Part shown: piece by piece, positions 57,916 to 64,000 of the stretch | How the letters are laid out: every line of letters begins with the position of its first letter | Position numbering within the stretch: the stretch's first letter is position 1 | Source: Methylacidiphilales bacterium | GTDB lineage: Bacteria; Verrucomicrobiota; Verrucomicrobiia; Methylacidiphilales; UBA1321 | Length of the DNA: 64,000 nucleotides | NCBI GenBank assembly: GCA_026225555.1 | Contig: JAMFSY010000007.1 | Span: forward strand, 1 to 64,000 | Direction of reading: 5' to 3' | The notes under the pieces: generated by a model | Seen by the model: only the letters and a program-made list of their open reading frames with translations | Told to the model about the DNA's origin: nothing | The model's database searches: none | Program-made: the position numbers and the translations under genes

Positions 57916-60633
57916 ATGTCCTGGTCAGTGGAAATGCGCGGCAAAAGCATCTACCTGCCGCAGATCGATCTTTGGTGTGATGCCCATGTGCCCGTGCCTT
58001 GTTCGTTTGTTTCGCATGCGCATTTCGATCATCTGGCCGCGCACCGAAAGATTATCACGTCGGAAGGCACGCGCCGGTTGATGGCCACGCGGCTTCCCGG
58101 CGAACGCGAGGAGATCGTGCTGCCTTTCGGCGCGTCCTATGCCTTCGATGCCGGGACGGAGCTGAGGCTTTATCCCGCCGGACACATCTTCGGCTCCGCC
58201 ATGCTGCATGCGACCCGCGAGAGCGAATCTTTTCTCTACACCGGCGATTTTAAATTGCGGCCGGGACATTCGGCGGAAAAATGCGAACCGCCGCGTGCGG
58301 ATGTGGTCGTGATGGAAACAACCTTCGGTCTGCCGCGCTATGTTTTTCCGTCGATCGAAAAAGTCCTCGCCGACATCGTCCACTTTTGTCAGGACGCGAT
58401 TGAAGATGGGCAGGTGCCTGTTCTCTTCGGCTACTCGCTCGGTAAAAGCCAGGAGCTTCTTTCCAGCCTCGCGGAAGCAAAGCTCCCCGTCATGCTGCAC
58501 CCTCAGACCCTCAAGATCACCAGGGTCTACGAAGAACTCGGCCAGACTTTCTGCCCCTACGAGCCCTTCACGCTCACCGAAGTTTCCGGGCATGTCGTGC
58601 TCTGTCCGCCACAGGCCGCGCAATCCGCCTGGCTGCGTAAAATCAAGGCGCGACGCACGGCTGCGATTACCGGTTGGGCGGTCGATCCCGCGGCCGTTTA
58701 TCGTTATCAATGCGACGCCGCCTTTCCGCTCAGCGATCACGCCGATTATGCCGATCTGCTGCGCTTCGTGGAATTGGTGCAGCCTAAACGGGTGCTTACC
58801 GTCCACGGTTACGTCAAAGAATTCGCGCGCACCCTACGCGAAAAGGGAATCGAGGCATGGGCACTGGGAATCGATAATCAGCTGGAGATTTCACTGACGC
58901 AACTAAATCACCGGGCTCTCGCCACGCCTGTTCCGAAGGCGCCGCCAGTCGTCCGGCAAACTCAGGAAGGCGTCGTTGGTAAGGAAGACCTGCTTGCCTT
59001 CGCCCAAGTTGCCGAAAAGATTCGCGCGACAATGAAAAAGCTCGAAAAAGTGGAGTTGTTAAAAAATTATTTTGCCAAACTCCCACCCGAAGCACTCGGT
59101 GCGGCGGCGCTTTCCTTCACCGGCCGGCCATTCCCGCCGAGCGAGGGCCGCGCATTGAATTGTGGCTGGGCGATTCTCAAGGCGGCCCTGCTCGGTGTCT
59201 CCGGCACGAGCGAGGCCGATTACCGTTCAACTTACCATCGCTACAGCGACAGCGGGGACACGGCGGAGGCCATTCTCCAAGGCCGCACCACGCCTTCACC
59301 CTGGCCGGTTTCTCACCTGCCCGCCTTCTTCGATTCGTTGGCCGCGATGCGCGGGCCGTTCGACAAAAGGGATCTCTTGCGAGATCGGTTGGCGCAGCTT
59401 GATCCCCTTGCGGCGAAATATTTGATCAAAATCATCACGGGAGATTTGCGCATCGGTTTGAAAGAGGGGCTGGTCGAAGAAGCGCTCGCCGCCGCATTTG
59501 CCCGTCCGCCCGAAGCGATTCGCGAGGCCAATATGTTAAGCGGCGATCTCGCGGCCACCGCGCGCGCCGCGCGCGAAGGCACGTTGGAGAAAATGGAGCT
59601 CCGGACCTTCAATCCCATCCACTTCATGCTGGCGAGTCCTGAGCCGACGGCGCAGGCCATCGTGGAGCGCCTGGCCGATCCCATTTGGGTCGAGGAAAAG
59701 TATGACGGTATTCGCTGCCAGTTGCACAAGGAGGGCGAGCGGGTGGAGCTTTATTCGCGAGAACTGCGGTGCATTACGGATCAATTTCCCGATCTCACCG
59801 CGCGGGCCCGGAAAATTCCGGCCGACTTCATCGCGGATGGGGAGCTGCTCGCGTGGCAGAATGGACGCGCGCTGCCTTTCGCGGAACTGCAAAAACGGCT
59901 GGGGCGAAAAGGGGGCGACGATTTCTTTCTGGGTGCGGAAATTCCGGTGTCGTTTTCGCTTTACGACCTGCTTGGTCTGGAGGGAAAGAGCCTGCTCAAA
60001 TTATCGCTCCGCGAACGCCGGGCGCGCCTCGATGCCATCCCGCTCGTTTCCGGGATCGAGCGGGCGCCTTATCGATTGGTCAGCGGTGCAACGGCGATCG
60101 AGGCGGCGTTTCTTCAGGCGCGCGAGCGCGGCAATGAAGGTCTGATGGCGAAGGACCCGGAATCCATTTATCTTCCGGGCCGCCGTGGACTGGCCTGGCT
60201 GAAATTGAAAAAAGCCTACGCCACGCTTGATGTCGTGGTGGTCGGCGTCGAGTGGGGCCACGGCAAGCGCAAGAACGTGCTTTCCGATTACACCTTCGCC
60301 GTGCGCGACGAAGAGACGAACCGGCTCCTCCCGGTTGGCAAAGCCTACTCGGGCCTGACCGATGCGGAGATCGCACATTACACCGAGCATTTCCTCCAAA
60401 GCACGCTGGAGGAACGCGGGTGCTATCGTTTGGTACAGCCGGAAGTCGTGCTCGAGGTCGCGTTCGATACCATCCAGCGCAGCGACCGGCACGCCTCGGG
60501 TTATGCCCTCCGCTTTCCCCGTATCCTGCGCATCCGCGATGACAAGACCGTGCGCGAAATCGATACGCTGGCCTATTGCCGGGAATTGGCCGAGACTGCC
60601 GCGCAGGGCTGGAAATCGATGCCCGCGACGTGA
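57916..60633 (+). CDS. fused ligase-associated MBL-fold exonuclease (SNM1-like) and ATP-dependent DNA ligase
   Basis: N-terminal SHAHFDHL, YTGDFKLRPG, SDHADYADLL, VLTVHGY; C-terminal ligase motif I EEKYDGIRCQ, FIADGELLAW, GLMAKDPES, WLKLKK; continuous 905-aa ORF. Confidence 0.92.
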   Translation: MSWSVEMRGKSIYLPQIDLWCDAHVPVPCSFVSHAHFDHLAAHRKIITSEGTRRLMATRLPGEREEIVLPFGASYAFDAGTELRLYPAGHIFGSAMLHATRESESFLYTGDFKLRPGHSAEKCEPPRADVVVMETTFGLPRYVFPSIEKVLADIVHFCQDAIEDGQVPVLFGYSLGKSQELLSSLAEAKLPVMLHPQTLKITRVYEELGQTFCPYEPFTLTEVSGHVVLCPPQAAQSAWLRKIKARRTAAITGWAVDPAAVYRYQCDAAFPLSDHADYADLLRFVELVQPKRVLTVHGYVKEFARTLREKGIEAWALGIDNQLEISLTQLNHRALATPVPKAPPVVRQTQEGVVGKEDLLAFAQVAEKIRATMKKLEKVELLKNYFAKLPPEALGAAALSFTGRPFPPSEGRALNCGWAILKAALLGVSGTSEADYRSTYHRYSDSGDTAEAILQGRTTPSPWPVSHLPAFFDSLAAMRGPFDKRDLLRDRLAQLDPLAAKYLIKIITGDLRIGLKEGLVEEALAAAFARPPEAIREANMLSGDLAATARAAREGTLEKMELRTFNPIHFMLASPEPTAQAIVERLADPIWVEEKYDGIRCQLHKEGERVELYSRELRCITDQFPDLTARARKIPADFIADGELLAWQNGRALPFAELQKRLGRKGGDDFFLGAEIPVSFSLYDLLGLEGKSLLKLSLRERRARLDAIPLVSGIERAPYRLVSGATAIEAAFLQARERGNEGLMAKDPESIYLPGRRGLAWLKLKKAYATLDVVVVGVEWGHGKRKNVLSDYTFAVRDEETNRLLPVGKAYSGLTDAEIAHYTEHFLQSTLEERGCYRLVQPEVVLEVAFDTIQRSDRHASGYALRFPRILRIRDDKTVREIDTLAYCRELAETAAQGWKSMPAT

Positions 60634-61028
60634 TGAAGCTTCCCCCGCAAATCGAAATGGAAGGCCTGATCGCCTACGAACAGGTCGGCGCGTTTGAGGA
60701 CTTGCAGCGCAAGCGCCTGCCGGCGATTTATGGCGGGCTGACGCTACTATTTGTCATCTGCGGCGGCGCGATGCTGCTGGCGAATCTTCCGGCCGGGGCC
60801 CTTTTATGCCTCGGGATCGCCATCCTGTTTCCGCTTTGGGCCGGGTTTGAATGGTGGCGGCTGCGGTTGCGCTACCAGGAGAATCTGCGACGGCTCGCGG
60901 AGCTGGAAAGCCAGTACGGCGACCAGGTGCCATGGCTCCAGGTCGAACGGCATTTCGCCGCGTTGGAGCAATTGCGGGCGGACCTGGCCGAGGAGAAGCA
61001 GAAAGCCGAAGAGCGCCGCGCTAAATAA
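60633..61028 (+). CDS. small two-TM membrane protein
   Basis: TGATG overlap with the ligase stop; LPAIYGGLTLLFVICGGAMLLANLPAGALLCLGIAILFPLWAGFEWW, C-terminal coiled coil. Confidence 0.65.
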   Translation: MKLPPQIEMEGLIAYEQVGAFEDLQRKRLPAIYGGLTLLFVICGGAMLLANLPAGALLCLGIAILFPLWAGFEWWRLRLRYQENLRRLAELESQYGDQVPWLQVERHFAALEQLRADLAEEKQKAEERRAK

Positions 61029-63142: not shown

Positions 63143-63269
63143 AGGGCAAGCTGACAGGCTAGTCCGGGTCGCGCGGAAGAACAAGTCCGTGCAGATCGCG
63201 CGGGGCCGCGGGGAATCTTCTCGATTCCGTCGTCGCTTTTTTGTCAAATGGACGTTCCGTCCCTTCCCC

Positions 63270-64000
63270 ATGCCCGATTCCTCGTTTTCCACTCCGCCCC
63301 AGAAAGTCCTCGTCACCGGTGCCGCCGGTTTCATCGGGTCCCGCGTGTGCGCCTTGCTGCATGAACAAGGTTACGCGGTCACGGGGCTGGACAGCTTCAA
63401 TGACGCTTATGATGTGCGCCTGAAGGACTGGCGCTGGGCGCAATTGGAAAAACGGCCGGGCTTGGAATTACACCGGCTTGATCTTGGCGACGTGGCGGGG
63501 CTGACCTCGCTTTTCGAAAAACAGGCCAGCGGTGGGTCGGCGCCGTTCGATGCCGTCATCAATCTCGCGGCGCGGGCCGGTGTGCGCGCCTCGGTGGAAT
63601 TTCCCGCCGTATACGTGGAGGCGAACGTCAGTGGCTCGCTCAATCTTCTGGAGATGTGCCGAAAGTTCGGCGTGAAGAAATTCGTCCTGGCCTCAACTTC
63701 GAGTCTCTACGGCAAGGAGCATCCCACGCCCTATCGCGAGGACATGAATACCGACCATCAACTCTCGCCCTATGCGGCGACGAAGAAGGCGGCTGAGGCC
63801 ATGGCCTACACCTACCATTTTCTGCACGGGCTCGACATCAGCGTGCTACGCTACTTCACAGTTTACGGCCCCGCCGGCCGGCCGGACATGACGCCGCTGC
63901 GTTTCACCCAGCGCATTCGGGAGGGAAGGAAGATCACGGTATTCGGCGACGGCTCGCAATCGCGCGACTTTACCTACGTGGACGACATCGCCCGGGGAAC
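63270..64000 (+). CDS. NAD-dependent epimerase (UDP-glucuronate 4-epimerase-like), truncated at window end
   Basis: Translated from sequence: MPDSSFSTPPQKVLVTGAAGFIGSRVCALLHEQGYAVTGLDSFNDAYDVRLK...SPYAATKKAAE...FTVYGPAGRPDM. Confidence 0.9.
   Translation, partial: MPDSSFSTPPQKVLVTGAAGFIGSRVCALLHEQGYAVTGLDSFNDAYDVRLKDWRWAQLEKRPGLELHRLDLGDVAGLTSLFEKQASGGSAPFDAVINLAARAGVRASVEFPAVYVEANVSGSLNLLEMCRKFGVKKFVLASTSSLYGKEHPTPYREDMNTDHQLSPYAATKKAAEAMAYTYHFLHGLDISVLRYFTVYGPAGRPDMTPLRFTQRIREGRKITVFGDGSQSRDFTYVDDIARG

Follow-up and report, generated by a model that had tools for sequence, protein, structure and literature searches.

Proteins in which a nuclease is fused to a LigB-type DNA ligase have already been published, 13 of them from an Antarctic Dry Valley metagenome (PMC10140301, 2023). 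That study aligns its fusions to Opitutus terrae OTER_RS15935, and a passage in it credits the first report of such a fusion, in O. terrae, to Ejaz & Shuman 2018. The ligase half of one Dry Valley homologue was active with both ATP and ADP and its nuclease half was insoluble, and the damage repaired by the bacterial LigB pathway is stated there to be unknown (PMC10140301). The Dry Valley fused genes lacked Lhr or phosphoesterase neighbours, contigs and not whole genomes having been considered in that work (PMC10140301). The O. terrae and Dry Valley fusions have the same layout as the gene studied here, which lies in a stretch of 64,000 nucleotides (the window) from a Methylacidiphilales bacterium: an N-terminal RMMBL-type nuclease, a linker and a LigB-type ligase. 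We take the O. terrae fusion to have a helicase and a phosphoesterase beside it, whereas the window's genome has neither.

Two other systems are close. Both catalytic modules of the window gene are clear full-length homologues of components of the ligase-associated LigB cluster (TIGR04120-TIGR04123), but in the window nuclease and ligase form one polypeptide, both score below the equivalog cut-offs, and the helicase and the phosphoesterase PdeM are missing from the genome. LigD, the ligase of non-homologous end joining (NHEJ) with its phosphoesterase and polymerase, also combines end processing and sealing in one chain, but with another processing domain and another class of ligase, and the window's genome encodes a separate LigD together with Ku. 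The single-polypeptide nuclease and ligase of the original prediction is real, although its architecture was not new. The window gene is a further instance of the published fusion, to which the present analysis adds the genome-wide absence of the partners and a nested pattern of repeated loss. Newness seems to lie in this loss pattern and not in the fusion; a literature search that took in few subscription journals found no description of it.

The gene is a single intact ORF of 905 amino acids on the forward strand, running from an ATG to its stop without an internal stop codon, as had been predicted. Its features and the ORF that follows it are:
57916..60633, + strand, fused nuclease-ligase gene (stop codon 60631-60633)
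57916..58875, + strand, MBL/beta-CASP nuclease module, residues 1-320 (TIGR04122, RMMBL, alignment of 86 homologues, model pLDDT 93.5)
58879..58968, + strand, flexible inter-module linker of ~30 residues, 322-351 (pLDDT <50 in the AlphaFold model)
58996..59490, + strand, ligase N-terminal DNA-binding domain, residues 361-525 (Pfam PF04675)
59626..60210, + strand, ligase adenylation domain, residues 571-765 (Pfam PF01068)
59698..59700, + strand, predicted nucleotide-accepting lysine K595 in EEKYDGIR (aligned to motif I)
60271..60546, + strand, ligase OB-fold domain, residues 786-877 (Pfam PF04679; motif VI RFPR at 866-869)
60633..61028, + strand, small ORF whose ATG overlaps the fusion stop by one base (TGATG)

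The RMMBL match (residues 271-315) lies N-terminal to DNA_ligase_A_N (361-525), A_M (571-765) and A_C (786-877) within this one ORF, and all four Pfam matches exceed their gathering scores. Residues 6-318 match TIGR04122 with 215 bits and residues 361-891 match TIGR04120 with 335 bits, each over full length. The corresponding NCBIfam equivalog cut-offs of 325 and 400 bits are not reached, so the domain search proposed earlier establishes clear homology but makes both modules divergent homologues and not curated family members. We read the former region as a putative ligase-associated, TIGR04122-like MBL/beta-CASP nuclease and the latter as a putative TIGR04120-like, LigB-type ATP-dependent DNA ligase. 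All nuclease motifs quoted at the outset (SHAHFDHL, GDF, SDHADY, VHGY) were found, with SHAHFDH at residues 33-39, GDF at 110-112, SDHADY at 273-278 and VHGY at 296-299. The ligase, recognised from EEKYDGIR (residues 593-600), is complete, with its N-terminal, A_M and OB domains and the ATP-ligase motifs. The small downstream protein is possibly co-translated with the fusion, given the one-base overlap. It resembles a membrane protein, and a similar-looking small ORF lies behind the fused gene of a congener (L167), with no significant BLAST match.

An AlphaFold model built on 27 fused homologues contains two confident modules (mean pLDDT 86.9) and, at residues 322-351, a stretch with pLDDT under 50, consistent with a disordered linker of some 30 residues between the modules. 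The linker predicted at 58920-58990 agrees with this stretch and ends just before the ligase N-terminal domain at 58996. The pTM of the full model is 0.53, so that the model does not fix the relative placement of nuclease and ligase. Its best structural matches are the archaeal DNA ligases 3rr5, 3gde and 2cfm. The nuclease modelled alone has a pLDDT of 93.5 and a pTM of 0.90.

Across 86 aligned nuclease modules, comprising fused, nuclease-only and split forms, MBL motifs 1-4 and beta-CASP motifs A-C are conserved as in TIGR04122-type exonucleases. The motif residues (D22; H34, H36, D38, H39; H90; D111; E134; H275; H297 in the window protein) do not vary, except that one sequence lacks its N-terminus. 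Among 70 aligned ligase modules only that of genome G224 departs from the conservation of K595, D597, G598, R600, E643 and the later motifs: all 34 split ligases and 35 of the 36 fused ones have the motif I lysine, which is replaced, by leucine, only in G224. The LigB features, ATP-ligase motifs with the catalytic lysine, an N-terminal DNA-binding domain and an OB fold, are all present in the window protein.

The label 'SNM1-like' given to the nuclease proved imprecise. The SNM1A/B/C (DCLRE1) proteins carry a valine at motif C, and most other MBL/beta-CASP enzymes a histidine (PMC4678830, PMC7458816). The window nuclease shares with SNM1A, Apollo and Artemis the MBL/beta-CASP fold, the compact size and motifs 1-4, A and B, but it has an RMMBL match, and H297, a histidine in 86/86 homologues, aligns with the valine of SNM1A. 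Strictly speaking, therefore, it does not belong to the SNM1 proteins. Searches of PDB sequences with the N-terminal half returned SNM1A, CPSF73, aCPSF1, Ints11 and Apollo, SNM1A being the first match, and those with the C-terminal half returned archaeal and eukaryotic ATP ligases. Foldseek with the nuclease alone placed archaeal CPSF (CPSF/FttA), CPSF73, Ints11 and RNase TTHA0252 at the top and Apollo/SNM1A slightly lower; the query TM-scores, near 0.7, are similar for the two kinds of match.

Motif C and the fold neighbours would also fit an RNA substrate. The main substrate of the nuclease half might be RNA, whether plain, in R-loops or at RNA-containing ends; the ligase would then seal DNA once the RNA is removed, and the nuclease-only genes described below would be RNases. 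The histidine at motif C, as in CPSF73 and RNase J, the RMMBL match and the order of the Foldseek matches all speak for this. Changing the motif C valine of SNM1A to histidine leaves its DNA/RNA preference unaltered, however (PMC4678830), so the motif is not diagnostic and does not settle DNA versus RNA. The compact size of 330 residues, the first sequence match to SNM1A and the steady association with a DNA ligase and repair genes also argue against an RNA substrate, which we regard as unlikely but worth keeping in mind.

A relative is found in 64 of 289 genomes of the phylum. The survey of fused versus split forms called for earlier gave 27 genomes with the nuclease-ligase fusion, including the window's and G085, whose copy runs into a contig end. 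In two further genomes the ligase of the fusion is dead (G224) or truncated (G216); 21 genomes of the fused-type clade are nuclease-only, and others in families f4, f11, f14, f23 and f26 carry TIGR04120/TIGR04122-type genes that are separate and distant. Homology to the Verrucomicrobiota fused proteins extends across both modules, the gene of G099 matching along its whole length. Within the window's genus, one congener has the fusion (G289/G341, 76%) and two have the nuclease only (G290, 74%; G291, 75%). Public contigs contain further fused Verrucomicrobiota genes, as well as split pairs in Dormibacterota/Chloroflexota with ligases 45-53% identical. At L056 (7974-11626) and similar loci of these two phyla the split nuclease and ligase lie ~1 kb apart with no helicase or PdeM seen nearby, and the fused ligase is closer to theirs than to the split ligases of Verrucomicrobiota. 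Two loci carrying these genes have the public titles Betaproteobacteria (L040, BOG_genome_mining.10) and Rhodospirillales (L071,.22); since the former is identical with genome G289, a congener of the window, its title appears to be mistaken.

One branch of the nuclease tree parts the fused-type and nuclease-only sequences from all split ones (support 96/90 with 86 sequences; 87/90 with 103). The nuclease-only sequences are scattered, and well-supported branches force at least six changes of state with 86 sequences and seven with 103; holding them as a single clade is rejected (p-AU 1e-77). The ligase tree is congruent with the nuclease tree in broad outline, with several deep forks lacking resolution. 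Four fused sequences (L044, L045, L046 and L070) are not placed by it, and a single origin of the fusion is therefore not proven. Gain and loss cannot be told apart by counting changes of state, and one large clade of nuclease-only genes near the poorly resolved base is possibly a lineage that was never fused. We nevertheless consider repeated loss of the ligase from a single fusion more probable than that these two families fused several times over, always in one order, and synteny, that is change in place at shared loci, speaks for loss.

Such change is seen in family f6, where the locus has an AI-2E family permease, often with DoxX, upstream, and DUF3108 followed by a methylpurine-DNA glycosylase downstream. 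Between these flanking genes lie nuclease-ligase, helicase and PdeM in G010 and G099, and nuclease-ligase alone in G045. In G224 the locus holds a nuclease fused to a dead ligase (DoxX is upstream, the permease was not seen), and in G140 a nuclease alone, the genus-mates G261 and G085 being fused. The gene of G224 (L121, 4074-6344) has an intact nuclease and a ligase in which the catalytic lysine (K595L), R615 (R615A) and the motif III glutamate (E643T) are replaced and which lacks its C-terminus with the whole OB domain; this would make it a natural dead-ligase intermediate. The window's genus shows comparable states: G341 has the fusion together with helicase and PdeM, the window has the fusion only, and G291 has a nuclease-only gene beside a retained downstream epimerase that is 79% identical to the window ORF 63189-64000. 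In sum, the ligase module is missing at seven or more places of the nuclease tree, in some cases demonstrably at one and the same locus, with the nuclease itself intact. In family f65 of the same order, fused and nuclease-only genes are found within one genus of small genomes (G317 and G331 versus G315 and G312), which is another place of ligase state change. We also observed that the DUF3108 gene is conserved directly downstream of the nuclease(-ligase) at f6 loci, and that the surroundings of L122, L126, L128, L120 and other f6 loci are rich in repair genes, with a UvrA-type gene and the methylpurine-DNA glycosylase. In tblastn searches for ligase remnants behind nuclease-only genes only the nuclease C-terminus matched; a weak 32-aa match in L085 (20 bits), lying in a gene that reads as DUF3108-type, was taken as chance.

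These states raise the question whether the window gene is itself a decaying remnant, with its partners gone, the ligase half heading for loss as in G290 and G291, and only the nuclease mattering. Two nuclease-only congeners at 74-75% identity and the dead, truncated ligase of G224 (K595L, E643T) are in line with this. Yet the alignment shows all catalytic residues of the window ligase to be intact, and relative to the closest fused relative (76%) the ligase is no more diverged than the nuclease (divergence ratio 0.91), so that the window ligase does not look relaxed and decay appears improbable. The ligase/nuclease divergence ratios of genomes with partners (0.7-1.6) and without them (0.8-2.3) overlap, so we claim no general relaxation of the ligase where the partners have gone.

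As predicted, neither partner lies in the flanks, and the wider search then recommended found none in the window's whole genome (4.09 Mb, 94% complete): the best score was 60 bits for the ligase-associated helicase (TIGR04121, cut-off 850 bits) and 20 bits for PdeM (TIGR04123, cut-off 150 bits). The four-gene pathway with a DEXH/Lhr-type helicase and PdeM is accordingly not encoded there. The congener G341 has helicase (677 bits) and PdeM (129 bits) as a pair that follows a TypA-like GTPase block; contig 123 of the window's genome has the same block followed by a different gene, read by eye as carA, which indicates that the absence is not just incompleteness. Conceivably the fusion still works in a full LigB pathway in which a different helicase and a different phosphoesterase, encoded in the genome, replace the partners. 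The genome does have several DEAD/DEAH helicases, from which the 60-bit score comes, but nothing near the TIGR04121 family or, at 20 bits, PdeM. Moreover several lineages have lost the two partners jointly, a pattern more suggestive of a lost functional step than of replacement; we consider substitution rather unlikely.

Among 29 fused-type genomes, 20 have both helicase and PdeM, nine have neither and none has one alone. Both are kept by 19 of the 27 fused genomes, several as a fused-helicase-PdeM operon. Fusion thus did not cause partner loss, the two being separate events, and on this point the original prediction needs correcting. PdeM occurs in 24 of 289 genomes of the phylum, each with nuclease and ligase sequence (19 fused, the truncated G216 and four split), and neither PdeM nor a full ligase-associated helicase was found in the nuclease-only genomes (0/21). 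Helicase frames of 1,400-1,500 aa in other families (G008, G266 and others) were set aside by length and score as generic long Lhr. In G216 (L092, 2732-4510) the fusion ends before the ligase adenylation domain while helicase and PdeM are present, which breaks a strict order of loss; the truncation may be real, or an assembly error or chimeric contig.

The weakest explanation, a sequencing or assembly artefact that joined two genes by a lost stop or frameshift at the junction, is practically negligible and was counted as already refuted, since a 76% identical full-length relative, some 30 more of the same class at 43-66% and, overall, full-length fused homologues in over 30 separate assemblies, among them several genomes on a single contig, exclude both chance and sequencing error.

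We favour, with a probability of roughly 0.7, a two-headed repair enzyme of the LigB pathway whose partners have been lost as part of a class-wide erosion. The MBL/beta-CASP nuclease, with two metal ions, would trim or resect a damaged or blocked strand end, probably from the 5' end. The LigB-type ligase, having adenylated itself at K595, would then be allowed by the flexible linker to encircle the resulting nick and seal it. Most simply, the fusion would have arisen once, in an ancestor of these Verrucomicrobiia genes in which helicase and PdeM were then present. In the window's lineage both partners would have been lost, the fused enzyme acting without them beside ordinary Ku/LigD end joining. 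Across the class, helicase and PdeM would go together and the ligase would go in other lineages, while the nuclease is kept, implying that it has a job of its own. Against this reading we count that we found no published demonstration of nuclease activity for any member. The idea of a 'streamlined' end-processing and sealing enzyme fits the window, but close relatives of the same genus lack the ligase, so the stand-alone fusion may be a step of erosion and not an optimised final state.

In the Verrucomicrobiia a four-enzyme repair pathway, fused at the nuclease-ligase step, may thus have been dismantled repeatedly and in a nested manner, helicase and PdeM persisting only with the ligase and the ligase only with the nuclease. 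The nuclease would then have an independently selected function and the window would represent the middle state, an autonomous nuclease-ligase; we give this wider reading about even odds. Genomes with nuclease-ligase only or nuclease only are natural separation-of-function variants that show which parts depend on which, and they point to the nuclease as the core of the pathway.
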